This document shows positions 2,596 through 23,382 of a stretch of DNA of 23,382 nt, one piece after another. The notes below the pieces were generated by a model, which ran no database searches, was not told the origin of the DNA, and was given only the letters and a program-made list of their open reading frames with translations. Each line of letters starts with the position of its first letter. Position 1 is the stretch's first letter. The stretch is from a virus, in IMG/VR virus record IMGVR_UViG_3300006916_000402, positions 1 to 23,382 of that record; one strand, given 5' to 3'. The position numbers were made by a program, and so were the translations under genes.

Positions 2596-4706
2596 ATAAG
2601 TACGAGATATCGTGGTATAAAGCAGAAGGAGAAATGCTGGACTCGTTGTATCGGGACCGGCAGGAGAGCTGGCAAAAGCTTTACGATTCATACGAGCTTA
2701 AGTTCGACGAGAAGATACGCGACCTGCGCGCTGAAGACGTCGTGAAGGTCAGCCGGTTTTACCCCATTGTCCGACAGATACTGGGTAGCATTGCCCACAA
2801 CTACCCGGTCATGTCGTTCAATGTAGAAGACGAGGTCAACGCCGACGTAGCGCCCATTCTGGAGCGCGCTGCCGGCAGCTATATGGAGATCACGTCGCTG
2901 AAGAGCCACGTCCATCAGGCCATATTCGACGCGCTCTTCTGTGGCGTTGGCTGGATTCGACTTGACTACAACCCACCCGGGGACGACTTCATTGCCCCCT
3001 ACACGACCAACGACGACTTCGCAGAGGATATGGTGGTCTGCCAGCGCGTTGCCCCCGGTTACGTGCATCTGGACCCCACGGGTAGCCCGCACCGACTGGG
3101 TGACAAGCGATACATCCGCGAGAAGTTTTGGACCCCGATGCAATATTTGCTCGACGACCCGCGCATTCAAAACAAAAAGCAAATCAAGCCGACCCAGTTG
3201 TCACGCGAAGACGAGGTAGGCTACGGCGAGGTGATGGGCGAACGCTACGACGGCCCAGAGCAGGAGGCCCTGCGCGAGTCAATCAGCAACGGCGACTTTG
3301 TGTTGGTGGAGCGGTGGCACAACCGCATGGAACGCCGCGAGGTGATGTTCGTGCCGGGCGTCGACCAGCCTATACTGGACGTCCCGCACCCATTCCGCAA
3401 GATGACGTTCCCGCAGGTAACAGACCTGCTGGGCCAGCCCGTATTCGACATAGACGACGTGACTGGTGAGCCGACAGAGCCCGTGCTGAATTTGCAAGGT
3501 GGTGAGGAGTCGTCCGGGTGGCTGGTGGAGCAGGGCTTTCCGTTTGTCGCTATCAAGTTCGATTTGGCGCAGGAGAGCTTCTACCCGCTGGGACATCTCA
3601 AATATTTAGAAGACATACAAAACAGCATCATTGAGCAGGTCAGCCGCGTATCAGACCTACTTAAGCGCACGTCGCGCATGACTGCGATACGTAACAGCGA
3701 GCTGGAAAGCAACCCAGAGATCGGCGACGTAATGCGCACTGGACGCGACGGCGAGTTTGTGGGCGTCGAGGATCTCAACAACATACGCGAGCTTAACTGG
3801 GGCAACGTCCCGGTCGACGTGTATAACTTCTCCAGCATGATGATGGGTATGGAGCGCGAGATCGCCGCACTTGCGCCACCGCAGGCCGGCCAGTCGGAGA
3901 CGGCAACGGAAGCGGCTGTCGTCGCTGCCGCTGCGCAGGTCAACGGCAACTGGATGGAGGCAGCGGTAAATACTTTCTACGAGACTATCGTGCGCAATGC
4001 GTTTCAAATCATGGGCGATCCGAGGTATACGCCAGAGTCGTTCGTTGAAAACATAGCACCAAACGGGGAGCAGCGAGTCGTGCGCGCACTGAGGACGTCA
4101 GACTTTTTATATACGTATCGCATAGAAACAAAAACGGGCTCAACGCAGCCACTATACGAGCAGCTTGAGCGCGACCGCACGATGGCGTTTGTAGCGTGGG
4201 CAGGCAACCGTCCAAACTACGACCAGCTTGAGGTAGACAAGCTCGCCGCCATTGCGCATGGCGTGCAGGACGTGGAGCGCGTGCTGCAGGATCAGGACAA
4301 CGTGGAGGCGCAGAGGGCGGCACAATACGAAAACGACCGCGTAATGACGGGCGAGCAGATAGAGGTGCTACCACAGCAAGACCACGCAGCGCATCTGGGC
4401 GTGCACTCACTATTCAGAGAGCATCCGACCTTTATACAACTCAACCAACAAGCGCAGGCCACGGACCTGACTGGCAACCCTGCCAACCCGCAAGCGGCAC
4501 AGTTCATCGCACAGATCGAACAAGCTATGGGCCAGCACATGCAGCAGCACGAGCAGGCAGCGCAGAATTCCCAGCAGGGAGAAACCGCGCCCAGCGCGCC
4601 GGCAGGAGCAGCGCAGGCTGCGCAAAACCAGCCTGATTTAATCTCGCAAGTGCAGTCCAATGCACAGCGTACATCCGACGTAATTTCCGCACAGACGCAG
4701 GGTTGA
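2592..4706 (+). CDS. portal protein (P22-like head-tail connector ring)
   Basis: The 704-residue protein starts at the ATGA overlap with terL. Its size is close to P22 gp1 (725 residues), far longer than the 400-500 residues of siphovirus portals. The N-terminus (WQKLYDSYELKFDEKIRDLR, then FYPIVRQILGSIAHNYP) and the later GYVHLDP and KYLEDIQNSIIEQVSRVSDLLKRTS segments match what I know of P22-like portals of aquatic podoviruses. The long stem helices precede a Gln/Ala-rich disordered tail from about residue 615, which would lie in the barrel or crown region. It forms a dodecameric ring through which DNA enters and leaves. Position right after terL and before scaffold and capsid supports the call. 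Confidence 0.95.
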   Translation: MNKYEISWYKAEGEMLDSLYRDRQESWQKLYDSYELKFDEKIRDLRAEDVVKVSRFYPIVRQILGSIAHNYPVMSFNVEDEVNADVAPILERAAGSYMEITSLKSHVHQAIFDALFCGVGWIRLDYNPPGDDFIAPYTTNDDFAEDMVVCQRVAPGYVHLDPTGSPHRLGDKRYIREKFWTPMQYLLDDPRIQNKKQIKPTQLSREDEVGYGEVMGERYDGPEQEALRESISNGDFVLVERWHNRMERREVMFVPGVDQPILDVPHPFRKMTFPQVTDLLGQPVFDIDDVTGEPTEPVLNLQGGEESSGWLVEQGFPFVAIKFDLAQESFYPLGHLKYLEDIQNSIIEQVSRVSDLLKRTSRMTAIRNSELESNPEIGDVMRTGRDGEFVGVEDLNNIRELNWGNVPVDVYNFSSMMMGMEREIAALAPPQAGQSETATEAAVVAAAAQVNGNWMEAAVNTFYETIVRNAFQIMGDPRYTPESFVENIAPNGEQRVVRALRTSDFLYTYRIETKTGSTQPLYEQLERDRTMAFVAWAGNRPNYDQLEVDKLAAIAHGVQDVERVLQDQDNVEAQRAAQYENDRVMTGEQIEVLPQQDHAAHLGVHSLFREHPTFIQLNQQAQATDLTGNPANPQAAQFIAQIEQAMGQHMQQHEQAAQNSQQGETAPSAPAGAAQAAQNQPDLISQVQSNAQRTSDVISAQTQG

Positions 4707-7699
4707 TGAATATCAATAGAGCATATCCCCCAACATTTAGCGGTGCTGGGCAGGGAGCGTATCAAGAATTAGATCCAGAGACGCGTGAAATACTGCAGGC
4801 GCTGCTGACTAAGTCGCCCGGCGGTATGTTGCAGACCACAATGGATACAGCGTCGGACATCGGCAACGTGTTAGGGTCTATAGGACAGCTGGACAAAGCA
4901 GAAGCACTGGGACGGCAGGTTCGACGCACGCTGCCCAATATTGTAGACGCGGTGTCTTCTGACGTCGGCGGCACGTATGATGCAATGAAAGAAGCGTTAA
5001 AGGAGGGCGTGCTGGAACGCGGGTTGGGCGCTGTGATGGGTATAGAAGATGTGGCAATACCCGGGTTCGGTATGATGTCAAAGTTGGGCGCAGCCGGCAC
5101 TGCGCTGGGTATGGCTGCTACGCCAATAGGTAAACGCACGCGAGAGCAACTGATAGAAGAGATTTTGAATCAGCCTACGCAATCAGCGGCAAACAAAGTA
5201 GGCAGGTCGGCAATAGAGCAAGAGGGCTATGATCCTGATATAGTCGATGCGCTGCGGGAGAAGCGGGATAAATCAATATTTGAGAAAACTGAAAGTTTAA
5301 GCTCTGGCAAAGAAAATCCTGCAGCAATTCGCAGAGAAAAAATGCGCGGCAATCCTGAGTTCAAACAGAGGTTGCCGCAAGAAGTAAAAGGCGAAACCAT
5401 TGCCACGCCATTGGATATCAGTCAGCGCGAAATAGTGCAACCCGAGTCGATGGTTGGCAACGTCGCCATCGGCGTTCCCGGCGACAGGTCCGCGCGCACG
5501 CGCATTGAACAACTGGGTGGCGTAAAGTTAGACGAGCCGATAGATGTGCAGGGAGGGCCGACGTATGGTTTCGGCAGGGATGATTTTTCGTGGGCGTCAA
5601 ACTATGGCATAGCGCGAGGCAAACAAAACCACGTAATAACGGCAAGTGAAGCCACTGGACTGCCCGTGCTCGGCATATATACAGCAATGGGCGAAGGCGC
5701 TGTAGACTTTTCTACGCCTGTCGTAGAGTTGCTAATGGGGCAGTTGAATACAATTAGAGTGCCGGCTGCAGCAAGAAAAAAATTAGATCAAAAAATTAAT
5801 GAAGCTATAAAGACGGTAAATAAGCAACGCATTGCTGAAGGTGTGAAAAAAGGTAGACCCGTAGAGGTTATTGAAGACAGCTTGCTTGACGAGTTTTTGG
5901 GCATAGATCACCCAGAGGCGATGGCTCAGTTGTTAGGGACAACAGGCGCATCGGGTAAAGAATACAGAAGGTTTGGCTCGGGCGACCTACGCAAGGTGGT
6001 TGTACAAACAATAGCGCGAGAGGATATGCGCGGTCTGGGCTTTCCCAGCTACAAAGATGCGGCCTACCAAATGACGGAGCCCGAATTGCGGTCTGTGCAG
6101 CGTGGCGATACGGGCGGCGCCATCCTCCGCATGGACCCAGACGCAACACTGCGTGATCCTGACGCCCCGCCAGATGCCGGCCACAGATCCTACGATACGG
6201 GCATACCGGGGCAATATCAAGGCGTCATGGAGCGGGTTGATATACCCGCGCCTATTATGTTTCCAAAAACGTTTGATAGATACCGGACGTTAAAAACTAA
6301 AGAAGGCAATCCTATGGAGCTGCATTCCCAAATGGGCAAGTTCCATATGGGTGCAGACTTTGAGGTGTTAGACCAGCAGTGGCTTGACGGCGTTCGCAGC
6401 TACATGGAGCGCAAGGGCATCACGGATTTGGGTGGTGTGCCTACGCTCGCGTTTCTCTTGCTGGGAGCCGGCGGGCTCAACGCGATGGCAAGCGACGATC
6501 CTGAGATGCAGGCAGCAGGCGGCGCAATGATGGGCGCAGCGGCTATGGGGGGTGCGCCAAAGTTTATCAAGCAAGCGGCGACGGGTGCAAGAAACGCAAA
6601 GAAGCTACGAGAGCAGCAGTTAAAAGAATTTGAAGACTTCGACTATCCTGACGCTGAAGAGTCTATAAGGACACAGATAACTACTACAAAGCCCACGTAC
6701 ATCAAAGCCAATCAATATCTGGATGACCAGCAAGCCGTCGGCAAGACGTTGGACTACGGAGCCGGCTTAGGGTTTTCCAAAGAGATGCTGGGCTACGATA
6801 TGTTTGAGCCAAACACGGCAAGGGGCGAAGCGCTCGGTGTGAAGTACGACTTCACAGATTCCAAAGTCATACCAGACAATCAATACGAGCGTGTTGTCAA
6901 CTTGAACGTGCTCAACGTCGTCAGTCCGCAAGTCAGAGACTTTATAGTCGAAGATATAGCGCGCGTGATGAAGCCGGGCGGCAGTGCGATTATCACGACC
7001 AGAGGGCGAGATGTATTGAACGCGAAAGGGACGCCCGGACCTGAGCCGATGTCGCTTGTCACGTCAACCGGCACGTATCAGAAAGGGTTTACCAACCCAG
7101 AGCTAAAGGAATACATAGAGACGGTGCTGGGGGAAGGCTATGACGTAAAAAGTATAAGCCTCGGTGGAGCCGGCGTTTATGTAAAAAAAAAATCTAATCA
7201 GGTAGACATTGCTACGCAGGCTTCAAGCGGTGTGCGAGTGCCTATGCCTGACAAACAGTTAGGAGTCGGTAAAAAAGTCGGATACGATTACTATGTGCAT
7301 AAATCAGCAGAAGACGTTATCCCTACCGATGTATTGTTAAAGGCAAAAGGAAAAGTTGGTGACTTTGAATACGATATAGTCAAATACAACAACAAGGATA
7401 ATTCGATAAGTTTTATAGAAAGCCCAGATTTTGACATAGCAGACGAACCTACTGTAGGGAAATCCATAAAAGTGGGCGCAGATGGTCAAGTATCCAGTCC
7501 CAGAAAAGGTGGGGTGACTGTATATCACCATAAATGGAATATGGTGAGGCCAGATTACATGGGTTTTGATTATCAGGATGCTATTGAAAGGTCAGTACGG
7601 TGGACGCAAAAGCTTGAAGGTACTGGAATAAATCGTAACAAAATAGGCAACAAAAATTATTGGGAAACTGTAATAATCCCCATGCTAAACAATGAGTAA
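4706..7699 (+). CDS. large multidomain virion-associated protein with methyltransferase-like domain (MuF-slot polyvalent protein)
   Basis: I place the start at ATG 4706, which overlaps the portal stop (TGATG); a TTG three bases earlier is possible. The 997 residues divide into: a helical N-terminus (about 1-160); a conserved-looking segment (about 240-400) with VQGGPTYGFG (from about 280), FSWASNYG and PVLGIYTAMG...DFSTPV; a hydrophobic Gly/Ala stretch (578-620) beginning GGVPTLAFLLLGAGG; a class I SAM-methyltransferase-like domain (about 660-829) with motif I LDYGAGLG (D683-G689), VVNLNVLNVV (730-739) and MKPGGSAIITTRG (from 755); and a C-terminal domain (about 830-997) with YYVHKSAEDV, FIESPDFD and YHHKW. 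It has no (D/N)PP(Y/F) motif, so it is not an ordinary DNA methylase. Its place between portal and scaffold is the MuF slot, suggesting packaging in the virion and delivery into the host. Substrate unknown. Confidence 0.8.
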   Translation: MNINRAYPPTFSGAGQGAYQELDPETREILQALLTKSPGGMLQTTMDTASDIGNVLGSIGQLDKAEALGRQVRRTLPNIVDAVSSDVGGTYDAMKEALKEGVLERGLGAVMGIEDVAIPGFGMMSKLGAAGTALGMAATPIGKRTREQLIEEILNQPTQSAANKVGRSAIEQEGYDPDIVDALREKRDKSIFEKTESLSSGKENPAAIRREKMRGNPEFKQRLPQEVKGETIATPLDISQREIVQPESMVGNVAIGVPGDRSARTRIEQLGGVKLDEPIDVQGGPTYGFGRDDFSWASNYGIARGKQNHVITASEATGLPVLGIYTAMGEGAVDFSTPVVELLMGQLNTIRVPAAARKKLDQKINEAIKTVNKQRIAEGVKKGRPVEVIEDSLLDEFLGIDHPEAMAQLLGTTGASGKEYRRFGSGDLRKVVVQTIAREDMRGLGFPSYKDAAYQMTEPELRSVQRGDTGGAILRMDPDATLRDPDAPPDAGHRSYDTGIPGQYQGVMERVDIPAPIMFPKTFDRYRTLKTKEGNPMELHSQMGKFHMGADFEVLDQQWLDGVRSYMERKGITDLGGVPTLAFLLLGAGGLNAMASDDPEMQAAGGAMMGAAAMGGAPKFIKQAATGARNAKKLREQQLKEFEDFDYPDAEESIRTQITTTKPTYIKANQYLDDQQAVGKTLDYGAGLGFSKEMLGYDMFEPNTARGEALGVKYDFTDSKVIPDNQYERVVNLNVLNVVSPQVRDFIVEDIARVMKPGGSAIITTRGRDVLNAKGTPGPEPMSLVTSTGTYQKGFTNPELKEYIETVLGEGYDVKSISLGGAGVYVKKKSNQVDIATQASSGVRVPMPDKQLGVGKKVGYDYYVHKSAEDVIPTDVLLKAKGKVGDFEYDIVKYNNKDNSISFIESPDFDIADEPTVGKSIKVGADGQVSSPRKGGVTVYHHKWNMVRPDYMGFDYQDAIERSVRWTQKLEGTGINRNKIGNKNYWETVIIPMLNNE
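6671..7192 (+). other. class I SAM-methyltransferase-like domain within the 997-aa protein
   Basis: The domain runs from about residue 656 to K829. The glycine-rich SAM loop is DYGAGLG. The strand-4 equivalent is ERVVNLNVLNVV, helix and loop before strand 5 are IARVMKPGG, and the last strand is GAGVYVKKK. The NVLNV signature followed by KPGG resembles methyltransferase domains I know inside large phage polyvalent proteins. The acidic residue expected after strand 2 is plausibly D697 in MLGYDMFEP. Substrate cannot be read from the sequence. Confidence 0.75.
7183..7192 (+). other. ten-A tract at the end of the methyltransferase domain
   Basis: Ten consecutive A residues encode K827-K829 directly after the last predicted strand of the methyltransferase domain. 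If one A is added or re-read, TAA follows at 7195-7197. If one A is lost or skipped, TAG follows at 7203-7205. Slippage of RNA polymerase or the ribosome here would release the protein just after the methyltransferase domain. Whether this happens is unknown. Confidence 0.5.
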
Positions 7700-11680: not shown

Positions 11681-12592
11681 ATGACATTAGCAGAAGGCAT
11701 TGAGCTTGTACTGGACCGCGTAGGGCTTGAAGCGACCAACACTACGTTCAAGAATCGCGCGCGCAGATACATAAACATCAACGCGGTGGAGATCGCCAAC
11801 TTGTTGAAGTGGTGGTGGCTCAACCGAACGGTGACGTTCCGCACGACAAAGACGTTTACCATCACCGGCGCGTCGGGTGTATTTACGGTGGGCGAAACCG
11901 TGACAGGCGGCACGTCCAGCAGCACTGCCGTAGTGGACTCGCACGACACGACGAACGGGTTGCTGTTTGTCTACAACGAGTCTGCCGATTTTACGGCGTC
12001 AGAAACGATTACGGGAGGTTCCAGCAGCACTACAGCGACCTACCAGTCAGCAGCCAACACGCGCGTATACACGCCCGTTGACGGGTACGTGGGCGCGTGG
12101 TGGTCATTTATGAACGTCACGGACGAATGGCCTATAGAGATCATAGGTCCAGACGAGTACGATCTCTGGGATGAGGACCGCAGCCTGTCCGGTAACGTAT
12201 ATAAGGTCTTAGTCGGGGGGACGGACTCCACCACCGGCTACCCAGAGGTCGAGTTTTACTACACGCCGTCTACTACCGGGCAGGAAATACGTGCGCGGTA
12301 TCAGATGGCAATATCGACGTGGGCGGCATCCAATGACGGCGACACATTCTTAAAGCTCGGCATTCCGCAGATAGGCGAATCGGCGCTGGTGTATGGGGCG
12401 ACAAAGCTGTTGCTGCAGGAAAAAGGCGACGAGCAAGGCGCGCAGCGCGAAGCCAACGAGCTGGTGCGCGCTGTTGCGCTGATGAAAAAGCAAAACCTGC
12501 TACAGCAGGGCAACAGGCGCTACCCGTCGCAGGTCGAAGACCATGACTATATGGTCCGCACAGACAACCAGCTTGTTGTTGAGGCGGGCTAA
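11681..12592 (+). CDS. head-tail connector / tail accessory factor (P22 gp4-like) with beta-repeat insert
   Basis: The 303-residue protein starts directly after the previous stop. Its N-terminus (MTLAEGIELVLDRVGL...RARRYININAVEIANLLKWWW) is the helical beginning typical of connector proteins that dock on the portal. The C-terminal part (IPQIGESALVYGATKLLLQE, then a long charged helix) is also typical. Between them, residues about 57-125 are Thr/Ser/Gly-rich, with two copies of an 18-residue motif 36 residues apart, FTVGETVTGGTSSSTAVV and FTASETITGGSSSTTATY. This looks like an inserted beta domain. Immediately downstream is the gp10-like hub, reproducing the P22 order gp4-gp10. It likely plugs the portal after packaging. 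No lysozyme-like motif is seen. Confidence 0.72.
   Translation: MTLAEGIELVLDRVGLEATNTTFKNRARRYININAVEIANLLKWWWLNRTVTFRTTKTFTITGASGVFTVGETVTGGTSSSTAVVDSHDTTNGLLFVYNESADFTASETITGGSSSTTATYQSAANTRVYTPVDGYVGAWWSFMNVTDEWPIEIIGPDEYDLWDEDRSLSGNVYKVLVGGTDSTTGYPEVEFYYTPSTTGQEIRARYQMAISTWAASNDGDTFLKLGIPQIGESALVYGATKLLLQEKGDEQGAQREANELVRAVALMKKQNLLQQGNRRYPSQVEDHDYMVRTDNQLVVEAG
11882..12043 (+). repeat. two-copy beta-motif repeat inside the connector gene
   Basis: Residues 68-85 and 104-121 of the connector repeat the pattern F-T-x-x-E-T-(V/I)-T-G-G-(T/S)-S-S-(S/T)-T-A, with a period of 36 residues (108 bases). The DNA copies have diverged, so the duplication is not recent. Confidence 0.7.
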
Positions 12593-14154
12593 TGCCTATA
12601 GCGGCTGATACGATAAAATACGGCCCGTGGACGATGGGCGTTCGGTATGACCTGCCGCCAGAGGATATCGGTCCCAACGGACTGCAGGACATGCTCAACA
12701 CGCGCCTGACGCAGTCTGCCGGCATTGAAAAGGTCTTAGGGACTAAGAGCTACGAGAATGCTGCGGCGTTAGCAGGCACGCCCACTGTCACGGCGTGTGG
12801 GCAGTTTCGCGTGCCGTCAACCGGAGCCGAGCGCGTGTTTATTGTAGCCGGCGCTGCCATGTATTACTACAACAGCGGCTGGTCAGATATTACGGGCTCC
12901 GTAACGATAACCGCTGGGGATGACAATACGTTTGAGTGGGTCCGAGCGTTTGACACGCTGGTCCTGACTAACGGCGTCGACGCGCCGATCAAGTGGTCAG
13001 GCACGGGCAACGCTGCCGTGCTGGACGTAGACAGCCGGTTCACGACAGCAGATCACGTAGCTTTCTTCGACAACCGCGTATGGATGGCAAACACAAACGC
13101 CGACGAGGACCGCGTGTGGTACTCGGACGCGGGCGATCCTGAGACGTGGGGTGCATCATCCTTTTACAACCTCGGAAGCCCTGTGCGGGGCTTACAGCCC
13201 CTACAAAACGCATTGGCGATCCATACCGAAGATTTTATCGCGGTGCTGATTCCTACGGGCAACGCGACGATCCCTTACCAACTACAGCAGCGCACTACGA
13301 CCGACCCGCGCAACCCACAACAAGGGGGCAGCATCTCTGGGCGGGCCATTGTCACGATCCCCGGTAACGCGCAGGTGTTTGTGTTGGAAGACGGCGTGTA
13401 CATGTGGGCCGGTGGCGAGATCGTAGAAAAGGTCTCATACGCGCTGGACGAGGGTTACTGGGCAAATATAAGCAAGTCGCGCCTTTCGCAGAGCTTTGCC
13501 ATCTACTATGCCGACGAAAACGAGGTGTGGTTTTGGTTGCCCAACGACAACACAAACTGCAACGAGATTATGGTTATGTCGCTGCGCCACCGCTACGCAG
13601 ACGAGACAAGCGGACAAACGCGCTTTGCGTGGTACGGTCCACTCAACGGAATTGGCGCGACGTTTGAGCGCAACTGTGCTGCCATAATTGATGACAAGCC
13701 CCACGCCGGCAGCTTCGGCGGCAAGCTGCTGGACCACGCGCCGGCAGTCACATACAACCACGAGTCTGCAGCCTACGACAGCCACTTTGAGACGGCGTCG
13801 CCGGCCCCATTAGGGGGTGACGTGGACCTGCGCTGGCTCTACGCGCGCACCTACTACGACGCGCTGGGAGCCTATACCCTAACAGTCCAGCAAGAGTCAC
13901 AGGGCGTAGGCGGTAACGTAGGAACACTGACGACGACCGGTGGGGGTGGTGTGATGGATGCGTTTACGCTCGACACGGACGCTGTAGGGACGAAGCGTAT
14001 GGTTAGTAAGGATCTCGACCTAAAGGGATACGACCCACACAGCTCCCTCAAATTCACAAACAATACTAAAGACGAGCCATACCGGATTCGACGAACGCAC
14101 CTGCAGTACAAGGTGATTGGTAGGCAACGGAAACCGAGAGCAGGGGTTAGCTAA
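12592..14154 (+). CDS. tail hub / packaged-DNA stabilisation protein (P22 gp10-like)
   Basis: The 520-residue protein begins at a TAATG overlap with the connector. It shows the pattern of the beta-propeller-like tail hubs of P22-type and related podoviruses. After an N-terminus with LPPEDIGPNGLQDMLNTRLT there are repeated strands such as AERVFIVAGAAMYYYNSGW, TFEWVRAFDTLVLTNGVDAP, RVWYSDAGDPETW, FVLEDGVYMWAGGEIVEKVS and NEVWFWLPNDN. The C-terminal domain (about 410-520) has RTYYDALGAYTLTVQQES and a basic end. P22 gp10 has 472 residues and closes the portal channel below gp4. The same partnership is implied here by adjacency and order. It probably also carries attachment points for fibres. Assignment is by fold pattern and synteny. 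Confidence 0.78.
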   Translation: MPIAADTIKYGPWTMGVRYDLPPEDIGPNGLQDMLNTRLTQSAGIEKVLGTKSYENAAALAGTPTVTACGQFRVPSTGAERVFIVAGAAMYYYNSGWSDITGSVTITAGDDNTFEWVRAFDTLVLTNGVDAPIKWSGTGNAAVLDVDSRFTTADHVAFFDNRVWMANTNADEDRVWYSDAGDPETWGASSFYNLGSPVRGLQPLQNALAIHTEDFIAVLIPTGNATIPYQLQQRTTTDPRNPQQGGSISGRAIVTIPGNAQVFVLEDGVYMWAGGEIVEKVSYALDEGYWANISKSRLSQSFAIYYADENEVWFWLPNDNTNCNEIMVMSLRHRYADETSGQTRFAWYGPLNGIGATFERNCAAIIDDKPHAGSFGGKLLDHAPAVTYNHESAAYDSHFETASPAPLGGDVDLRWLYARTYYDALGAYTLTVQQESQGVGGNVGTLTTTGGGGVMDAFTLDTDAVGTKRMVSKDLDLKGYDPHSSLKFTNNTKDEPYRIRRTHLQYKVIGRQRKPRAGVS

Positions 14155-17100
14155 TGAATATGTACGGGCCGGCAAACATGAACCCATATAACTACACCAA
14201 ACCTAAGCAACAAATGTCTGCAGCGGATTATTTCAGCATGACAGGCAGTGGTAGCGGCCAAAATAGCATGGCAGCTGTGTATAGCGCGTTGGGGTTAAAT
14301 ACTGGGCCTATTGGCGCAGCAAACACAGCTGCAGTGATGCAAAATACAACACAGCAGAGCGGAGCCAATCCGTTTGCCGGCAGAAGCATGGCTGATGCAA
14401 TGGGGGGCATGACGCCGGGTGTGCCACAAGGTGCTGCTAATACCAAATTTGTTATGGGTGGTAATGCTGGTCAGGTCATGAATAGGGGGCCAACAAGCAG
14501 TGCATCTGCAACGGGTTCGATGGCAGGCAATGATGCATATAGGGAGCAGTTTAGCCAATCGCCCGTCCAAACGACGGTGGCTGATCCGAACCAGCAATAC
14601 CGTGATGCCTTTAGCAGTGGCGCAGTGCAGACAACTACGCCAACGCCCACGAGCGATCCGAATGCGGATTACCGAGCGGCATTTACAAAAGCACCAGTGC
14701 AGACAACGGTGGCTGATCCGAACCGGCAATACCGGGACAATTTCGGGACAGCTCCAGTGCAGACAGCAGTTGCAACATATGATCCCAACGCCGCCTACCG
14801 TGAATACTTTTCGCAATCGCCAGTGCAAACTGTAGCACCTCAGTCAGCCAATGAGCCGTTAGACATGACTGGATATGAGGGTGGGCCCGGCATTCCCACT
14901 GGCGGCAGCGGGATGAGCGGAAGTGAGTCTATGGCCGATGCAATGGCGCGACTGGGCATAAACCCCGGGGCGGCAATAGGCGAACAGAATCAAACCGCAG
15001 CAGGATTGGGTAGTGTTGCAGGTGAGACAATGGCCGATGCAATGGCGAGGCTGGGTGTACAGCCCGGGACTGCCGTTGGTGAACAAAACCAAACCGCAGC
15101 AGGTCTGGGTAGCGTGTCTGGCGAGACAATGGCTGACGCAATGGCGAGGCTGGGCTTACAGCCCGGGGCTGCCGTTGGTGATTTCAATCAAGCCGCAGCG
15201 GGATTGTCCGAAGTTAGCACGCCTGAGTTATCCGGTGCTACAGCTCAGTCGGCTGGGACGGGCGTGGCAACGCCCTATAGCACGCTCGGGTTGGACGACG
15301 CGCTCAAGGTTGGAACCGGCACGCCTGTCGGCAGCACGTTAGCAGACCGGGCGGCAGCTACTGCGGATCAGGCGCTACTGGATAGGGTGCGGGCAGGCAA
15401 GCTGGTTAATACGGACACGCCGATGGTTGGCGCAGCCGAGCAGAATGTATTGGATCGTCTTGCGGGCAATCAGTTGGGCTCCAGCGCGGATCTGGACTCG
15501 GCTATGGTCGCGGCGCGGAACCGCCTGTCGAATAGCGGCGTAACACTCGACACGGACCTGACCAATCAGGCGCAGCAGGTCATTATGGATCGCTTGATGG
15601 GTGGCAGTAATCCGTTGGTTGAGCAGCAGCGCGCAGATTTTCTTGAGCGGTCCCGGCAGCAGCAGGAGCAGTTGCGTGAAAACCTTAACCGCATGGGCGT
15701 GTTGCGGAGCGGCGATACGGCAGAGGCGCTGGGAGACTTTATCGGCTCGCGTGAGCGCACGCTCAATGATATTAACGCGCTGGGATATGACCTGCAGACG
15801 CAGGCACTGGCAGACGCACTCAACTTTGAGGGTCGGCGCGACAATCTAAGGCTCGCCAATGAGGATCTGGCGCGCGCAGCCATAGGCGATGTGGCAGGAC
15901 TGGCATCTCAATACGATCAGCGCGCTGCGTTGGAGTCAGGGCTTGCCGGGGATGCGGTGTCGCAGGCGTTGGGGCTGCAGAGCCGACGAGACCAGATGGG
16001 TATCGTCGATCAGGAGATGCAGCGGCAGGCTCTGACTGACGTATACGGACGGCAGGGTCAGCTATCGGCGCTGGAGACGGATCGTCTTAATCGTCAGTTG
16101 GCAATGGACGACGCCAGCCGTGCTGAGAGGGGTCTACAGTCCGATCTTGTTACGGCAGACCTACAGAGACGCTTGTCGCTTGCTGGCGACGAGCGGGCGG
16201 CACAGGCGCTCGGTTCGGACCTTACCAGCGCAGCGCAGCAACGCGCGCTGGCGGGACGTGCGGATCTTCGCGCACAGCAGGCGCTGGGCTCAGACCTCGC
16301 AACGGCTTCCCAGCAACGCGCACTGGCAAATACTGCAGATCAACGCGCTGGGCGGGCGTTGGATAGCGATCTCATCACGCAAGACTTACAGCGCCGGCTA
16401 TCGCAAGCGGCTGATTTACGGGCAACGCAGGCTTTGGGGTCAGACCTTACAGGTGCGGCGCAGGGCCGGCAACTGGCAGCGTCTGCGGACCAGCGCGCAG
16501 CAGACGCACTGCGATCCGATCTGGTGACACAAGATCTACAGCGACGCATCGCAGAGGCGGGCATAACGGGGCAATATTTCACTGGTGCAAATCAGGCCCC
16601 GGTAGAGACGTTATCTGGGCGTGCGATGGGGCTGGAGGAAGACCTCGCCCGCGCCAATGATCTACGCGCCCAGCAGCAGCTTGAGTCCATCTTGTTTGGT
16701 CAGGTCCAGACTGGTGCAGATAGTCCTATACAAACCCTCGCAGGGCAACAAGCAGCAGACGACCTGCAAACGCAGCAGCTCAACCGAAACCTTGCGATGT
16801 CCGACAACGCGCGCAGGACCCAGTTGGCCCAGCAGGACATACTCAATGCGATTGCCGGCAGAGGGCTACAGTCGGCAGCGGATCAACGCGCAGCGCAGGC
16901 GTTGTCCTCTGACTTAAGCACGGCTGACCTGCAGCGCAGGTTGTCCGAGGCTGACGCTACAGGCGACTTCTACGCACGCGGGTATGGGCAAGCGCCTACG
17001 ACGACGTTGCGCGCACGCGCCTTAGATCAAGACATCGCCGCATCGCAGGGCGCGGAAAACCGTGCTGAGAGAGCAATTGAAGACGCACTATTTGGCGAGG

Positions 17101-17432
17101 TTGATGGGACAACGACAGTTGGGGGATTAAATGCGGCGCAGGCGCGCCGACTTGCAAGCGACGCCGATGAGCGCGCCGCCGACTTACAAGAGCGCCAGTT
17201 GCGCGACATGGACATCGTGCAGTTGCTCGCGGCGCAAGATGCAGGGTTTGCTGGGTATACGCCAGTGCGCAATCAGATACTGCAAGCGTTAGGGTTGCCT
17301 ACGCCGGGAAGTTCAGCAACGCTCCCTCCCGGGGCAGTTCCGCGCGCAGATGGGACAATCGAAGCTGACGGCAGAATTTATCGCTATTCGTCAGATGGAC
17401 AAGAATTAATAGACGTAACGCCGGGGGGATAA
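14154..17432 (+). CDS. large repeat-rich internal virion (ejection) protein, 1092 residues
   Basis: The gene starts at a TAATG overlap and ends at another. The protein has almost no Cys or Trp and is rich in Ala, Gln, Arg, Asp and Gly. From the N-terminus: a Met/Asn/Gly/Ser-rich part; five copies of a YRxxFxxxPVQT unit (residues 126-229); three 33-residue copies starting MADAMARLG (259-357); a helical region (about 400-655); six tandem 25-residue helical repeats of the type ALGSDLxTxxxQRxLxxxADxRA (660-809); and two copies of a TG(Q/D)(Y/F)...QAP...LFG(Q/E)V module (805-854, 936-985). The C-terminus ends GRIYRYSSDGQELIDVTPGG. Its place after the gp10-like hub and before two other Ala/Gln-rich genes corresponds to the P22 ejection proteins. 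It probably lies inside the head and extends on injection. No enzyme motif is visible. Confidence 0.75.
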   Translation: MNMYGPANMNPYNYTKPKQQMSAADYFSMTGSGSGQNSMAAVYSALGLNTGPIGAANTAAVMQNTTQQSGANPFAGRSMADAMGGMTPGVPQGAANTKFVMGGNAGQVMNRGPTSSASATGSMAGNDAYREQFSQSPVQTTVADPNQQYRDAFSSGAVQTTTPTPTSDPNADYRAAFTKAPVQTTVADPNRQYRDNFGTAPVQTAVATYDPNAAYREYFSQSPVQTVAPQSANEPLDMTGYEGGPGIPTGGSGMSGSESMADAMARLGINPGAAIGEQNQTAAGLGSVAGETMADAMARLGVQPGTAVGEQNQTAAGLGSVSGETMADAMARLGLQPGAAVGDFNQAAAGLSEVSTPELSGATAQSAGTGVATPYSTLGLDDALKVGTGTPVGSTLADRAAATADQALLDRVRAGKLVNTDTPMVGAAEQNVLDRLAGNQLGSSADLDSAMVAARNRLSNSGVTLDTDLTNQAQQVIMDRLMGGSNPLVEQQRADFLERSRQQQEQLRENLNRMGVLRSGDTAEALGDFIGSRERTLNDINALGYDLQTQALADALNFEGRRDNLRLANEDLARAAIGDVAGLASQYDQRAALESGLAGDAVSQALGLQSRRDQMGIVDQEMQRQALTDVYGRQGQLSALETDRLNRQLAMDDASRAERGLQSDLVTADLQRRLSLAGDERAAQALGSDLTSAAQQRALAGRADLRAQQALGSDLATASQQRALANTADQRAGRALDSDLITQDLQRRLSQAADLRATQALGSDLTGAAQGRQLAASADQRAADALRSDLVTQDLQRRIAEAGITGQYFTGANQAPVETLSGRAMGLEEDLARANDLRAQQQLESILFGQVQTGADSPIQTLAGQQAADDLQTQQLNRNLAMSDNARRTQLAQQDILNAIAGRGLQSAADQRAAQALSSDLSTADLQRRLSEADATGDFYARGYGQAPTTTLRARALDQDIAASQGAENRAERAIEDALFGEVDGTTTVGGLNAAQARRLASDADERAADLQERQLRDMDIVQLLAAQDAGFAGYTPVRNQILQALGLPTPGSSATLPPGAVPRADGTIEADGRIYRYSSDGQELIDVTPGG
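14529..14841 (+). repeat. five YRxxFxxxPVQT repeats, 20-24 residues each
   Basis: Five tandem units read NDAYREQFSQSPVQT, NQQYRDAFSSGAVQT, NADYRAAFTKAPVQT, NRQYRDNFGTAPVQT and NAAYREYFSQSPVQT, joined by short Asp-Pro or Thr/Pro linkers. The DNA shares stretches such as ACGGTGGCTGATCCGAACC between units two apart. Confidence 0.85.
14928..15224 (+). repeat. three tandem 99-bp repeats (33 residues, MADAMARLG type)
   Basis: The ATG codons of MADAMARLG fall at 14931, 15030 and 15129, exactly 99 bases apart. Copies continue with PGxAxGExNQTAAGLGSV. The first two are nearly identical in DNA, pointing to recent duplication. A degenerate copy, SMADAMGGMTPG, occurs earlier in the same protein near residue 78. 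Confidence 0.9.
16131..16580 (+). repeat. six tandem 75-bp repeats (25 residues, SDLxTxxxQRxL type)
   Basis: Six consecutive 25-residue helical units begin GLQSDLVTADLQRRL, ALGSDLTSAAQQRAL, ALGSDLATASQQRAL, ALDSDLITQDLQRRL, ALGSDLTGAAQGRQL and ALRSDLVTQDLQRRI. They alternate between a DLQRR and an AAQQR form. A further detached copy (ALSSDLSTADLQRRL) lies at about 16896-16940. Confidence 0.9.
16566..17108 (+). repeat. duplicated ~50-residue module flanking a helical segment
   Basis: The first copy (16566-16713) reads TGQYF...NQAPVETL...ESILFGQV and the second (16959-17108) TGDFY...GQAPTTTL...EDALFGEV. Both follow an SDL...LQRR repeat ending in Ala-Glu-Ala or Glu-Ala-Asp-Ala, so the larger unit of repeat plus module seems to have been duplicated together. 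Confidence 0.75.
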
Positions 17433-18793
17433 TGCCTGAACCAATGACAATAGCAGCTTTATTAGGGCTGGGCAGCAGCATCGCAAACGCCGGTGCTGGC
17501 TATTACGCTCAGAAAGATTTAGAGCGAGCGCAAAGGCGTCAAGCTGCCGCACAGAAACAAGAAAATGCAATGGCAAACCTTTCTCGTGCGTTTGGGGGCA
17601 ACCCTATTGCCAATCAAGTGCCGTTAGACTTTCGGCCCGGGAAAGGTGCAAACCTTTTGAGCGCGTTAGGGCAATTGGCCGGCGCAGGTTCGCAAGCAGT
17701 CGGTTTGTATGGAGGCATGAAAGACAGGCAAGCACAAAACAGATTGCGGGACTTGCAAACACAGGCAGCTGCAAATCAGTTAGAGCAGCAAGCGGGTGCG
17801 CAGGCACAAACGGCAGGCGGCTATGTGCCAATACAAGTGGATGAGGCATTGCGCGGCACGTCTGAATTACTTGCCGCGCCTATAGAGACGAGCTCTATGG
17901 TATCACCTGCTTTCCGTGCAGGAGCGCAGCAGCAGCGTATGGATGACCTGACGCAGCAAGCGCAGCTAAACCTTATCAATGCAAATGCTCAAAGAGCGCG
18001 TGCGGCTGGAGGGACAAGTTTTAGTGGAAGCAATCGTATCCGAATTGCAGCAGATGCTGGGAGTAACGTGGCTACGTTAAACCCATTTCTTAGAGGTGAC
18101 GAGGCAAAAAAATTAATAGTTGAGCAAAGCGGTTCGATGTCCCCCGAATTGCTTACATCGGCGGTGGCAGGATACAATGAACAGGCAGCACAAATAAGGG
18201 ACAAATTTAATGCCATACTGGACGGTGCAGTAAAGCAAGCGACTAATACAAATTATGAAGACGGCGTGCTTGCATTAGAGGCAGGATTACAAGCGCAAGG
18301 CTACGACCTGTCAGAAAATATGTTGAGTTCATTCTTAGACCGAATTGATGCAGCAAGTGACGCATACAACTTTAGCGCAACTGAGAAAAAACAACTCATG
18401 CAGTTGACGACCATACGTGCGAATGCTTTGAGGGCAATAGAGACCCTGACTGACCCAGAAGCAATAGGGCAAATACAGGAAGCGTTTGGGAGAAGTGAGG
18501 GAGCTATAAAAAAAGCCCGGGCCTATTTAGTAGGCGAGCAAGAAGCGATTGGGCCGGAAGCGGCAAACTTCCTAACACAATTAGGATTCCTCCGTGACAC
18601 GGTAGCACGCTATCGCTCTGGAGCAGCCTTAACCGAAGCCGAGCAGGATTTCTACGAAGGATTAGTAGGGGGAATATTTACACAACCAGAGCAACTCAGA
18701 AACACGTTGGGTGAATTAGTAAATCAAATGAACCGTGAGATAACAAGCCTATATGAAGTAGAAGCAATTAGTCGCGGAAAAGGTCCATACTAA
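17432..18793 (+). CDS. probable internal virion (ejection) protein, 453 residues
   Basis: The gene begins at a TAATG overlap, preceded by a G-run that can act as a ribosome-binding site. The N-terminus (residues 5-25, MTIAALLGLGSSIANAGAGY) is a small hydrophobic Gly/Ala helix, followed by a Gln/Arg/Ala helix (AQKDLERAQRRQAAAQKQEN). This arrangement recurs at the start of podovirus ejection proteins. A second Gly/Ala-rich stretch is at about 72-95. The rest is mainly helical and ends with an acidic/polar region. It lies between the repeat protein and the 673-aa protein, so I place it as the gp7/gp20-like partner that inserts in the host envelope. Base composition is visibly more AT-rich than in the neighbours to the left. 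No enzyme motif seen. Confidence 0.7.
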   Translation: MPEPMTIAALLGLGSSIANAGAGYYAQKDLERAQRRQAAAQKQENAMANLSRAFGGNPIANQVPLDFRPGKGANLLSALGQLAGAGSQAVGLYGGMKDRQAQNRLRDLQTQAAANQLEQQAGAQAQTAGGYVPIQVDEALRGTSELLAAPIETSSMVSPAFRAGAQQQRMDDLTQQAQLNLINANAQRARAAGGTSFSGSNRIRIAADAGSNVATLNPFLRGDEAKKLIVEQSGSMSPELLTSAVAGYNEQAAQIRDKFNAILDGAVKQATNTNYEDGVLALEAGLQAQGYDLSENMLSSFLDRIDAASDAYNFSATEKKQLMQLTTIRANALRAIETLTDPEAIGQIQEAFGRSEGAIKKARAYLVGEQEAIGPEAANFLTQLGFLRDTVARYRSGAALTEAEQDFYEGLVGGIFTQPEQLRNTLGELVNQMNREITSLYEVEAISRGKGPY

Positions 18794-20814
18794 TGGCTAA
18801 AAACCAACTACAGCAATATCGCCAACTATACACTGCGCCTGCATTGCCGTCTGCAAACATACAAAACGAACCACCTACTGCGACTGCAAATCTGGGTGGC
18901 TTAATGAAACAATTCAAAAATCGTATGTTGGCATCGCTCGATCCGGAGCCCGAAGGTAAGGTCGACATATTAGTGAGCCGTGGCGTGCCGCGCGAAGCCA
19001 TACAGATAAAAAATGGCGAGCTGTTTGTAAATACGCGACAAGGATTGAAGAAGTTTGATGAGGATGAGATAACTATTTACGACTTCGCCGATATGCTGGG
19101 AGACGCGATCCCAATGGTGACGAGCATTATGGGATCGTTCGTAAAGCCGGGGACCGGGACTGTGTTAGGTGGCGTGGGTGGAGATGCATTTCGACAGGGC
19201 ATGGCAAAGGAAGCAGGATCAGAGCGAGGATATGACGTAGGGCAAACTGCGTTAGAGGGCGCGTTTGCAGCGGGTGGTGAGTTACTGCAGCGGGGTGTAA
19301 CGGCGCTGCTAAAAGGGCCAGCGGCGAAGAAAGCGCAAACAGGCGCAATGAAGCAAGTCCGCGATCTTGTGGGTCAGGCTGATAAGGCTGCGGGCACAGA
19401 GATGATGAAAGTTGCTCCACCGCAAATCAGGACCGCGTCGCCATTTATAGGAGGCATGGCAAACGTCGCTCGCACAAATCAAGTAACAACTGAAATTATG
19501 CGCGAAGCAGACGAGCCGCTTTTTAGGGAGTTTCAAAGAGCAATTAGCAATCTGCAGAAAAAAGCGGGTTCAAAGGGCGGGCCGACTGCCAGCAGCGCAG
19601 ACGCAGCTATAGAAACCGGCGAGCGGATACGCGGTGCGATAGAAACGACAACGGACATACGGCAAGGTGACATTAATAAGTTGTATACAGACTTCTTTAC
19701 GCAAGGCGGCGTAGATAGGTCTGCACCAATAGACCGCACGGCGATAGATAACGCGCTGAATGCAATAGAAAATACAGACTTGTTCAAGCGTGAGGGCAAC
19801 GTAGGCGTGCGCGGCATAGACAAGCTGGCAAGCTCTATGGAGCTGGCGTTGGGAGCGCGCACGTTTGACGACGTGCGGAGAGTGAAGTCTCAAATTTACG
19901 AAGAGTTAAACTCCAATAGACGGTCGGCTATACCATTTTTCGACGACAAGGTTGAAACACAAATGCGCAACCTTGCCGACTCAATGCACTACGCCGAGAT
20001 GGAGTTCCTGCGTCAAGGTGGCGGCACAAACAGTCCGCAAGCGTACGCGCTCGGGCGTCAAGCGGCAGACGCTGCGGAGTCATTGTTTCGGGTAAAAGAG
20101 TCAGGGGCAGTGCGCAGGGCAATGAGCAACGATGAGAAGGGCAGTCAGATTGCGCGCACAGTATTTGAGAGCATGACGCCTGAAGAGATTATTAATTTTA
20201 AAATCAGTATCGGCCAGCAGGGAACGCCATCCGGGTTGCGGATAACGAAAGAAGGCGCAGACGCGTGGGCGTCAATTATAAACGCATTCTTTGAAAACCT
20301 AAAAACAGCTGGGTCTATTTCATCAGATCAAATGAAATCGGGTATGTATCCACAGGATCTGCAGAGGATCATAAGTGGCAAACATATCAATAACTACTTA
20401 GATGGGTTAGAAAAGAGTAGACCGGGATCAGTAGAAGCGTTGCTGGGGACAGATGTATACAACGAGTTGCGCACCGTGGCGAGGGCATTGCAAGAAATGA
20501 CGCAGGGCGAGCGGTCGATGGCAAACTTTAGCAACACGGCCCGTTATGTAAATTTTCAAGGTGGGTATGGGTCAGACATTGTCGATGCGTTGACAGGCAT
20601 GTTTAGAGAAGGTGGGAAGACGCGAGATGCGTTAGCGCGCCTTGCAGCGCGGGCTGTAACCGACGTGGGTATTGCGCAGTTTATGACTAAGCCCGGGCTT
20701 GCGCGCTACATGCTCGGCGAGACAAAAACCCAACAGGCAATTCCTAATGACATGTTGAGACTGATCGGACGGACGACTTCGCAGGTCGGAGTGCGACAAT
20801 TAAGGGAAGAGTAG
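18793..20814 (+). CDS. probable internal virion (DNA-transfer, gp16-like) protein, 673 residues
   Basis: The start overlaps the preceding stop (TAATG) and the gene ends with TAG at 20812-20814. After a polar N-terminus there is a hydrophobic Gly-rich segment at about 97-165 (DFADMLGDAIPMVTSIMGSF, TGTVLGGVGGDAF, ALEGAFAAGGELLQRGV) with spaced small residues suited to membrane insertion or helix packing. The remaining 500 residues are helical and charged, with no recognised catalytic motif. As the last gene before the tail fibre it occupies the place of P22 gp16, the DNA-transfer protein. Similar long proteins with an early GG-rich membrane-like segment are common in aquatic podoviruses. The role is inferred from position and composition. 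Confidence 0.7.
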   Translation: MAKNQLQQYRQLYTAPALPSANIQNEPPTATANLGGLMKQFKNRMLASLDPEPEGKVDILVSRGVPREAIQIKNGELFVNTRQGLKKFDEDEITIYDFADMLGDAIPMVTSIMGSFVKPGTGTVLGGVGGDAFRQGMAKEAGSERGYDVGQTALEGAFAAGGELLQRGVTALLKGPAAKKAQTGAMKQVRDLVGQADKAAGTEMMKVAPPQIRTASPFIGGMANVARTNQVTTEIMREADEPLFREFQRAISNLQKKAGSKGGPTASSADAAIETGERIRGAIETTTDIRQGDINKLYTDFFTQGGVDRSAPIDRTAIDNALNAIENTDLFKREGNVGVRGIDKLASSMELALGARTFDDVRRVKSQIYEELNSNRRSAIPFFDDKVETQMRNLADSMHYAEMEFLRQGGGTNSPQAYALGRQAADAAESLFRVKESGAVRRAMSNDEKGSQIARTVFESMTPEEIINFKISIGQQGTPSGLRITKEGADAWASIINAFFENLKTAGSISSDQMKSGMYPQDLQRIISGKHINNYLDGLEKSRPGSVEALLGTDVYNELRTVARALQEMTQGERSMANFSNTARYVNFQGGYGSDIVDALTGMFREGGKTRDALARLAARAVTDVGIAQFMTKPGLARYMLGETKTQQAIPNDMLRLIGRTTSQVGVRQLREE

Positions 20815-20865: not shown

Positions 20866-23382
20866 ATGAATCTTACAGCACTAAAGAGTTGGGTGAGCGG
20901 AGAGACACTAACCGCTGCGGACCTCAACGCTGAATTTCAAAACATATACACGCACACAATCAACAATAGCGACATAGACAGCACGGCGTCGTATGTGTTG
21001 GGTGAGCTGGTCATTGGAACCGGACTGGCTGCGGCAGACGGCGGGCAGTTGCACGTTCACACGGGATCTGCCGGCACAGTGCAGGCGGCGTCGGATGCAG
21101 ACGAGGCTGTGTTTGAAAACAGCACGGCGTCAGGTATAACGATCCTTTCGGGTGGCTCCAGTACGGGCAAGATTGCGTTTGGTGATTCTGGCGATAACGA
21201 CGTTGGTCTTATCACATACAACCACGCAACAAACGCGCTTACCCTCGGGACAAACGGCACTACAGCATTAACGCTATCATCAGCACAGGCAGCAACGTTT
21301 GCCGGCGATGTAAGTGTCGGCGGCACACTGACGCTAACGGGTGGCATAACGCTCAACGGTAATACTACCATTGGTGACTCTAGTGCCGACACCCTCACGG
21401 TCAACAGCACCATCACCAGCAACCTCATATTCACGGATGCGACCTACGACATTGGCGCGAGTGGTGCTACACGCCCCCGTGACCTCTTTCTAAGCCGCAA
21501 TGCAGTGATGGGCGGCACATTGGGCGTTACGGGCCTCATCACGGCCTCTGGTGGCGTAAGCGGTGCGTTGACAGGGAACGTAACTGGCAATCTTACGGGT
21601 AACGTCACTGGCGATGTCACGGGAAATATCAGCGGCAACGTCACAGGCGGCACGATCAGCGGCACAACGGCAACCTTAACAGGCGCACTCACAGGCACTA
21701 CGGGAACATTCAGCGGCTTAATCTCTGGCAACGGTGGAGCAGAAATAGGAAGCAACACCGCAAAGGTTAAATTTTATTCTGACTCCACTTACAGCGGAAT
21801 TTATAACGGCTCATCATTAACCTCAGACGAGTCGTATTATTTCGGCAACGGAGACCATTTTTGGTATAGTGACGGTTCTGTGGCGATGAAATTGGACAGC
21901 AGCATCGTCGGCATAGGCACATCATCTCCAAGCACTTACTCTTTTAATAATGACGCAAGGTTAGTAGTCGCTAATACCAGTGCAAACTCTACTATAACGA
22001 TTGCGAGCGGAACGAGTAGTAGCGGCTATTTAGCGTTTGCTGATGGCACCACAGGCACCGACCGCTACAGCGGTCAAGTCCAATATAATCATAGCACCAA
22101 CACAATGTCATTTAAAACGGGTGGCGGCGTTGAGGCTATGACGATCAATTCAGCGCAAGACCTCGCCGTCGACGGCGACACTCTATATATCGACGCTAGT
22201 GCAGATCGCGTCGGCATCAATACGAGTTCGCCAGACAGTGTTTTACATCTATATAAAAGTGGTTCGCTGGCTCAATTGAAAATAGAGGCAAATGGTGTAG
22301 CTAATCCCAGATTGGCACTGTATAACAATTTGACGTATGCCTCGCAAATAACTTACACCAACGATTTGCAAGTTTATGGCAATGGTGGGAGTAATCTTCA
22401 TCTTGTTTTAGACTCGTCTGGCTATTTGGGATTGGGAACCAATAATCCAACAGGTCTGATGAATTTAATGGCCGATGGTGCTACGCCGTTTACGGGTGTG
22501 TCAGACGTTCTGTTAGACATAAAACGAGGAGTTACAAATACAGGTAGTGGCAATGCAACGGCAATCCGATTAGGCAATAACAGCAACGGTTTCAAAATTT
22601 CCTACGGTGGAGCCGCTGACCATTTGCAATTTATTGATGGCGGTAATTCGGCAATTATGACGTTAGTCAATGCCAATAATAACGTCGGCATTGGCACGGA
22701 ATCGCCAGCGTGTCGCACTCATATCCGTGAAAGCACTTTAAGTGGGTTTACGCCAGACAACAATACGAACCTTGCAGTCGAGGAAAACAGCACCTCATTG
22801 ATTGAGATCGCAGGGACGGATTCTGGGATTCTGTTCAGCGATGCAACTGCGTGGGCAGGGCGCATATTCTACACGCACAGCACTGATCAAATGGCCTTTG
22901 CTACAGCGCAGTCGAACAAAATGTATCTCGACTCGTCTGGCAATCTGCTTGTGGGTAAAACAACTACCTCAGCCGCTACTGCGGGCGCGAGTATATCTTC
23001 TACTGGCGCTGCCACCTTTGTTAGAGATTCCGATTGTTTGCTGTTAAATAGGCCGTCAACAACAGGGACTATTGCGGCTTTTAGACAAGCGAACACGGAA
23101 GTCGGAACGATCAGCGTTACTGCGTCTACAACTTCCTATAACACCACCTCTGACTACCGTTTGAAAGAAAATGTAGTAGGCATCACAGACGGCATCACGC
23201 GCATCAAATCGCTCAAACCCTCACGTTTTAATTTCATATCAAACGCTGATCAAACAGTTGACGGGTTTGTGGCGCATGAGGTGTCTGACATTGTGCCAGA
23301 AGCTATTACTGGCGAGAAAGATGCTGTGGACGATGAGGGCAACCCAGAGTATCAAGGCATCGACCAGAGCAAGCTGGTACCG
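20866..23382 (+). CDS. tail fibre with C-terminal S74 intramolecular chaperone (3' end outside window)
   Basis: The frame is open from ATG 20866 to the window edge (839 codons). The N-terminus MNLTALKSWVSGETLTAADL, then NAEFQNIYTH, is a common fibre anchor of aquatic phages. The shaft is Gly/Thr/Ser/Asn-rich, with six TGNV-type units (residues 236-259) and four V/L-G-I/L-G/N-T-x-x-P motifs at about 348, 449, 521 and 607, plus DSSGNLLVGKT. From about residue 760 the S74 peptidase domain begins with TSDYRLKENV. S762 and K767 have the five-residue Ser-Lys spacing of the endosialidase-type self-cleaving chaperone. It continues with RFNF, DGFVAHEV and YQGIDQSKLVP. The chaperone trimerises the fibre and cuts itself off. 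About the last 20-60 residues are missing. The fibre should bind the receptor. Confidence 0.93.
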   Translation, partial: MNLTALKSWVSGETLTAADLNAEFQNIYTHTINNSDIDSTASYVLGELVIGTGLAAADGGQLHVHTGSAGTVQAASDADEAVFENSTASGITILSGGSSTGKIAFGDSGDNDVGLITYNHATNALTLGTNGTTALTLSSAQAATFAGDVSVGGTLTLTGGITLNGNTTIGDSSADTLTVNSTITSNLIFTDATYDIGASGATRPRDLFLSRNAVMGGTLGVTGLITASGGVSGALTGNVTGNLTGNVTGDVTGNISGNVTGGTISGTTATLTGALTGTTGTFSGLISGNGGAEIGSNTAKVKFYSDSTYSGIYNGSSLTSDESYYFGNGDHFWYSDGSVAMKLDSSIVGIGTSSPSTYSFNNDARLVVANTSANSTITIASGTSSSGYLAFADGTTGTDRYSGQVQYNHSTNTMSFKTGGGVEAMTINSAQDLAVDGDTLYIDASADRVGINTSSPDSVLHLYKSGSLAQLKIEANGVANPRLALYNNLTYASQITYTNDLQVYGNGGSNLHLVLDSSGYLGLGTNNPTGLMNLMADGATPFTGVSDVLLDIKRGVTNTGSGNATAIRLGNNSNGFKISYGGAADHLQFIDGGNSAIMTLVNANNNVGIGTESPACRTHIRESTLSGFTPDNNTNLAVEENSTSLIEIAGTDSGILFSDATAWAGRIFYTHSTDQMAFATAQSNKMYLDSSGNLLVGKTTTSAATAGASISSTGAATFVRDSDCLLLNRPSTTGTIAAFRQANTEVGTISVTASTTSYNTTSDYRLKENVVGITDGITRIKSLKPSRFNFISNADQTVDGFVAHEVSDIVPEAITGEKDAVDDEGNPEYQGIDQSKLVP
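21571..21642 (+). repeat. six tandem 12-bp units encoding TGNV-type tetrapeptides
   Basis: Consecutive tetrapeptides TGNV, TGNL, TGNV, TGDV, TGNI and SGNV are encoded in six 12-base units within the fibre shaft. Such TGN(V/L) runs are typical of beta-helical fibre shafts and can change copy number by slippage. Confidence 0.85.
23149..23166 (+). other. predicted self-cleavage site of the fibre chaperone (Ser762-Lys767)
   Basis: The codons encode SDYRLK. In endosialidase-type S74 domains the Ser and Lys of S-D-x-R-L-K form the catalytic dyad, and cleavage occurs at the Ser. Both residues are present, so the domain should be active. Confidence 0.8.

Follow-up and report, generated by a model that had tools for sequence, protein, structure and literature searches.

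The 23.4-kb window, by which we mean the whole stretch of DNA analyzed here, is the entire IMG/VR entry of a podovirus. Its genes follow the order TerL, P22-like portal, a 998-aa gene, a gene in the scaffold position, MCP (which matches PHROG 9953), SU10-type adaptor, nozzle, REP, ej2, ej3 and S74 fibre. As listed in Table 1, REP is a large repeat protein, and its features together with those of the adjacent genes are the subject of this analysis. The REP gene was found nucleotide-identical in two further IMG/VR contigs, each from a different metagenome, and is therefore not an assembly artefact. TAATG overlaps join the adaptor, nozzle, REP, ej2 and ej3 genes, a sequence arrangement consistent with translational coupling.

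Table 1. Coordinates (window numbering) of REP, its internal features and its neighbours.
Feature	Position	Strand	Basis or remark
Adaptor (SU10_adaptor, TubeA-like)	11681..12592	+	PF24175, 29.5 bits, exceeds its cut-off
Tail nozzle (TubeB / P22 gp10 / T7 gp12 type)	12592..14154	+	AF2 model and Foldseek
REP, 1092-aa modular repeat protein, first ejection-gene slot	14154..17432	+	Open frame, ATG start
N-terminal cassette, recently exchanged tract	14154..14724	+	87-97% nt identical to L002/L005; rest of locus ~70%
Degenerate fourth MADAM copy, residues 79-83	14388..14402	+	Missed in the first-pass annotation
Short linear motif SASATGSM, residues 116-123	14499..14522	+	Kept across lineages; missed in the first-pass annotation
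Five YRxxFxxxPVQT units	14538..14831	+	Spacing 20/24/20/22 residues
Three exact 33-residue MADAMARLG units	14931..15227	+	Autocorrelation, TRF
Conserved helical core, residues 460-590	15531..15923	+	Common to whole family
Six exact 25-residue SDLxTAxxQRxLA units	16140..16589	+	Shuffle comparison
Duplicated module copy 1, with TG...ANQAPVET hairpin	16479..16781	+	Local alignment
Duplicated module copy 2	16872..17201	+	Local alignment
ej2, Mx8 p56 homologue (P22 gp20-type ejection family)	17432..18793	+	hmmsearch, hhalign, PHROG 917 via Mx8 p56
ej3, third slot gene (gp16 position)	18793..20814	+	Mx8 p57 homology weak

The genes on both sides of REP were identified by fold and by profile comparison. 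A first-pass annotation of the sequence had placed a "hub" in front of the repeat protein. The model of this gene product matched tail proteins of Pa223, VP1, SU10, P22 (gp10), Sf6 and T7 in Foldseek searches, with a best E of 3.5e-10, and on this modelled fold the hub, correctly placed before REP, is the podoviral tail nozzle. Downstream, ej2 is homologous to Mx8 p56 (hmmsearch E 3.7e-17; hhalign 92%), and Mx8 p56 in turn matches PHROG 917, annotated in the same way as P22 gp20: "released from the phage upon host infection". Since a direct comparison of ej2 with P22 gp20 gave no match, the gp20-type link runs via Mx8 p56. The two genes after REP had been described as membrane-like ejection proteins; the ejection part of this description agrees with the homology of ej2, but the membrane-like part is not supported, as neither protein contains a 19-residue window above KD 1.6.

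Two further observations were made outside the REP region. The gene after the portal (4703-7699) has a weak methyltransferase match and relatives at 1992-4388 of L015 and 610-2607 of L017; it encodes 666-1274 aa across relatives and belongs, together with REP and ej2, to the few genes that are swapped where the structural genes are 95-99% identical. A 24-nt tandem repeat encoding (N.TGN.TG) units lies at 21577-21623, within the S74 fibre gene.

Repeat families, conserved core and predicted fold of REP

The YRxxFxxxPVQT units of about 22 residues begin at REP residues 129, 149, 173, 193 and 215 and have no exact period. By contrast, the MADAMARLG units, at residues 260, 293 and 326, recur exactly every 33 residues (autocorrelation z 18.9; TRF 99 nt x 2.9), and there are three of them in the window compared to two in relatives. 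An exact period of 25 was observed for the SDL..QR.L units at residues 663-788, which on average share 45% pairwise identity, compared to 12% in shuffles (z 24.5). One degenerate 25-mer precedes this array at residue 638, another stands apart at residue 919, and TG..G..T hairpins break the array up. These analyses recovered all three families, well in excess of shuffled sequences, as the first-pass annotation had described them, with five, three and six units, respectively. The duplicated module reported there was likewise found (about residues 776-876 versus 907-1016; alignment score of 167 compared to a shuffle maximum of 70), but it exceeds the 50 residues proposed once gaps are allowed in the alignment. 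When the PVQT, YASG, FDFF and MADAM motifs were sought in other virion genes, matches were essentially confined to REP. A pentapeptide resembling [AS]P[VIT][QET]T occurs both in the N-terminal repeats (residues 136, 180, 200 and 222) and in the TG hairpins (815, 857 and 946).

Scans with REP, the nozzle, the REP core and a distant nozzle revealed REP homologues in the same slot of about 35 viral contigs, and synteny was observed in about 30 contigs. A core of about 130 residues is present in every homologue whose core is covered, and the IMG/VR podovirus homologues (L013, L015, L018, L029, L034 and others) match the core profile with E values of about 1e-16 or better, while differing from the window REP in repeat families, length and N-terminal cassette. 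Members of the family range from 795 to 1475 aa (CV 17%) compared to 502-527 aa (CV 0.9%) for the nozzle. Their N-terminal repeats include DPYASGTSTP, FDxFF and VMGGPGDLGEDY, and the ratio of 25-mers to TG hairpins differs from member to member. In the class formed by L034, L039 and L041 the core lies near the C-terminus, with almost no array after it, and none of the window's three repeat families is present. No relatives of REP were detected by tblastn in 50,697 phage records or in 84,980 bacterial and archaeal genomes. Searches of PHROG, Pfam and PDB sequences with REP gave nothing credible, nor did PHROG and Pfam searches with its relatives, and nothing relevant was found in the literature on repeat-containing or copy-number-variable ejection proteins.

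When REP residues 385-1092 were modelled with AlphaFold2 using 21 family sequences, the result had low confidence (pLDDT 64, pTM 0.25) and consisted of helices throughout, apart from short strands where the TG...T hairpins lie; a mostly helical C-terminal part, as previously suggested, is supported. Foldseek searches of the PDB with this model retrieved generic long helices only. Against viral models they retrieved internal virion proteins and S74 slot proteins, several with a probability of 0.96-1.00 but with E >1e-3; the two matches whose genomes could be checked, BPP-1 Bbp12 (0.87) and SopranoGao_9 (0.96), both follow a nozzle gene and thus occupy the slot that REP has. VIA-align superposed REP 452-570 onto residues 25-143 of a DNA-ejected T7 chain (116 of 119 residues, 3.3 A) with a Z of 9.5, a value in the chance range for helical bundles. 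The superposed chain is very probably gp14, because T7 entry 9jz0 contains gp14 and not gp15. In sequence comparisons with known slot members, hhalign gave E values of 0.15-0.26; with trimmed cores, REP against IVPB gave 0.027, a value that column shuffles reached in 2 of 150 cases. The REP core did not match IVPB, T7 gp14 or P22 gp7 significantly in sequence, and its relation to these proteins, by sequence or by fold, is only suggestive.

Copy-number change and exchange of the N-terminal cassette

The repeat content of REP changes between closely related phages. The nozzle genes of L002 and L005 are 99.6% identical and their REP genes 98.5%, yet the latter differ by one in-frame block of 132 nt that corresponds to two PVQT units. 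Comparison of repeat copy number across related genomes, which the first-pass annotation had recommended, therefore did reveal a change.

The N-terminal part of the gene has in addition been replaced as a unit. Between the window and L002, synonymous sites of REP are saturated over most of the gene (pS about 0.78), whereas pS is 0.18 in codons 1-125 and 0.40 in codons 126-232. This tract of high identity starts at the REP start codon and stops near position 14724 inside the PVQT array, which indicates that the N-terminal cassette was exchanged recently. In L017 and L015, with scaffold, MCP, adaptor and nozzle 95-99% identical, the N-terminal cassettes are unrelated (PVQT versus YASG), the other strongly differing gene being the post-portal gene. 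Similarly, the window shares structural genes with L013 at 81-97% identity, compared to 40% for REP and 67% for ej2. The first two repeat families had been read as looking like partner-binding repeats. Given that the cassette is replaced completely at near-constant structural genes, a virion partner co-evolving with it among portal, scaffold, MCP, adaptor and nozzle is unlikely as judged from these sequences, and binding of such a virion partner by the N-terminal repeats is not supported. The cassette motifs may instead be interchangeable, or their contact may lie in the host. A further gene of the family, at 2844-6887 of L019, is an intragenic recombinant with a core and array like those of L013 and a final stretch of ~100 residues that is nearly identical to L018.

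Within these exchangeable N-termini one short motif is conserved. A longer form of it, approximately PTxSASATGSMGG, occurs in REP homologues with otherwise unrelated N-termini. The pattern [AS]-S-A-[TS]-[GSQA]-[SAV]-[MI] occurs in 9 of 17 lineages, between residues 86 and 118, compared to 0.006 expected from shuffles, a ratio that is optimistic in its exact value, as the pattern was composed after the sequences were seen, but whose margin is still large. The N-termini that bear it are otherwise unalignable, with 15-38% identity, and the motif was absent from the other ORFs scanned. The motif could be a docking site or a processing site, both of which are possible. A role as a recombination linker at the DNA level was ruled out, as its codons vary synonymously.

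Candidate role of REP among ejection proteins

Several explanations of REP were weighed against these results. The first-pass annotation proposed that REP could be a length-adjustable conduit or scaffold that unfolds during DNA injection. In the form weighed here, the helical repeats would form an oligomeric rod across the envelope with a length set by repeat number. The long helices predicted by AF2, the helical tunnels formed by gp15-type ejection proteins (PMC8954989) and the wide variation in total length of REP would all fit such a conduit. However, the hydrophobic residues of the 25-mers show power at 25/6 (4.18) and 25/8 (3.12) residues and not at 25/7 (3.5-3.6), so that the hydrophobic face alternates within each 25-mer, unlike in a coiled-coil rod. 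With no single heptad or hendecad stripe and with hairpins interrupting the array, the helical rod expected of the 25-residue units is not borne out. Furthermore, phages with 93-96% identity in nozzle, adaptor, MCP and ej3 differ by ~300 residues in the array, near-identical phages vary copy number in the N-terminal linker and not in the helical array, and the L034/L039/L041 class has almost no array to adjust. Relatives lacking all three repeat families, which the same annotation considered contrary to its proposal, exist both in that class and among the slot proteins of isolates (231-451 aa). The conduit is thus possible but disfavoured, and we regard it as improbable. The missing heptad periodicity also bears on an external tail part, that is, a needle or fibre plugging or decorating the nozzle in the manner of P22 gp26, which we consider unlikely; a needle of the gp26 type is a long trimeric coiled coil with heptads. 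The needle gene gp26 is indeed the first gene after gp10 in P22, slot proteins of several isolates carry the S74 domain typical of fibres, and tail parts that contact the host typically exchange cassettes, but REP contains neither a Peptidase_S74 nor any other fibre domain, the window has its S74 fibre as a separate gene at 20866, and the REP model is mostly helical.

It was also considered that function might reside in the core only, the repeats being slippage products tolerated in disordered or filler flanks and drifting neutrally. The wholesale replacement of repeat families between lineages and the 132-nt indel between near-identical genes would fit such drift. On the other hand, drift would hardly keep the SASATGSMGG motif, with synonymous codon change, in unalignable N-termini, nor the aromatic and proline positions of the repeat units, and the 25-mer array is maintained between the window and L002 at a pN of 0.155 against a pS of 0.78. 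This explanation therefore appears quite unlikely to us.

Gene position, the neighbouring genes and the weak evidence from the fold all point to an ejection-slot protein. We consider that REP is probably an enlarged, modular internal-virion (ejection) protein in the first ejection slot of a podovirus of the P22/Mx8/phiGT1 type, its position being equivalent to that of T7 gp14, P22 gp7 and phiGT1 IVPB. In such a protein, the helical-hairpin core would do the conserved job. The N-terminal arm is predicted to be disordered; besides the conserved short motif, it carries aromatic short motifs in an array that is specific to the lineage. The C-terminal flank is predicted to consist of helical 25-mers and TG-hairpin units. 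REP may be packaged near the portal and may pass the nozzle largely unfolded, together with the other ejection proteins. The arm could act as a multivalent, swappable tether, and its variability would then reflect contacts made after ejection, with the envelope or cytoplasm of different hosts, and not a partner in the virion. More tentatively, REP might be a giant ejection protein of the gp14/gp7 slot whose disordered N-terminal arm is a mobile, repeat-built cassette, delivered to the host and exchanged independently of the virion; as a whole we hold this reading to be doubtful.

Compared to most other parts of short-tailed phages, ejection proteins are poorly understood. REP appears to be a known kind of part in a large and fast-changing form, with its repeats and front end swapped freely between otherwise near-identical phages. 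If REP is ejected, this would suggest a rapidly changing role that faces the host, in the cell or in the envelope, and the family, with its natural variation in length and motifs, would provide a series for probing the function of ejection proteins. Should the arm truly be a swappable cassette, ejection proteins would carry a host-interaction module, as tail fibres do outside.

Comparison with known ejection systems

Podoviral gene order and the relation to Mx8 have been described previously (PMC10386132), as have the functions of gp14, gp15 and gp16 (PMC8954989). The REP gene lies between the nozzle and the pair ej2 and ej3, as the gp14/gp7/IVPB slot requires, and the window order adaptor - nozzle - REP - ej2 - ej3 - fibre matches gp12-13-14-15-16-17 of T7. 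In P22, with the order gp10-26-14-7-20-16, the likeness to the window is in nozzle - ... - gp7 - gp20 - gp16.

The size of REP departs from that of its counterparts. The first ejection protein has been described as small and as the most constant of the set, with gp14 homologues of 181-240 aa (PMC8954989), whereas REP is 3-7 times longer and its family spans 795-1475 aa; we therefore describe REP as an occupant of the slot and do not file it as a member of gp14. T7 gp14 and BPP-1 Bbp12 (196-231 aa) gave no significant sequence match to REP, and P22 gp7, with 229 aa and no repeats, gave none either. Transmembrane helices have been predicted in T7 gp14 (PMC8954989), whereas hydropathy analysis detected no hydrophobic segment in REP.

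A like arrangement is found in phiGT1, whose order of tubeB - gp14-like - IVPB slot - two injection proteins resembles that of the window (PMC10386132). In sequenced relatives the slot holds internal virion protein B, in the position of T7 gp14 and P22 gp7, and the slot proteins of isolates are without the window's repeats. The IVPB-type proteins (IVPB of phiGT1, Mx8 p54, PHROG 6121) differ from REP in their length, 282-451 aa in the records examined, in having no repeat arrays and, in many cases, in an S74 C-terminus. Like REP, they follow the nozzle, in some cases with an acetyltransferase gene in between, and precede the ejection pair, and both they and REP have a helix-turn-helix core pattern, L..xG[IV]..G[ST].A.
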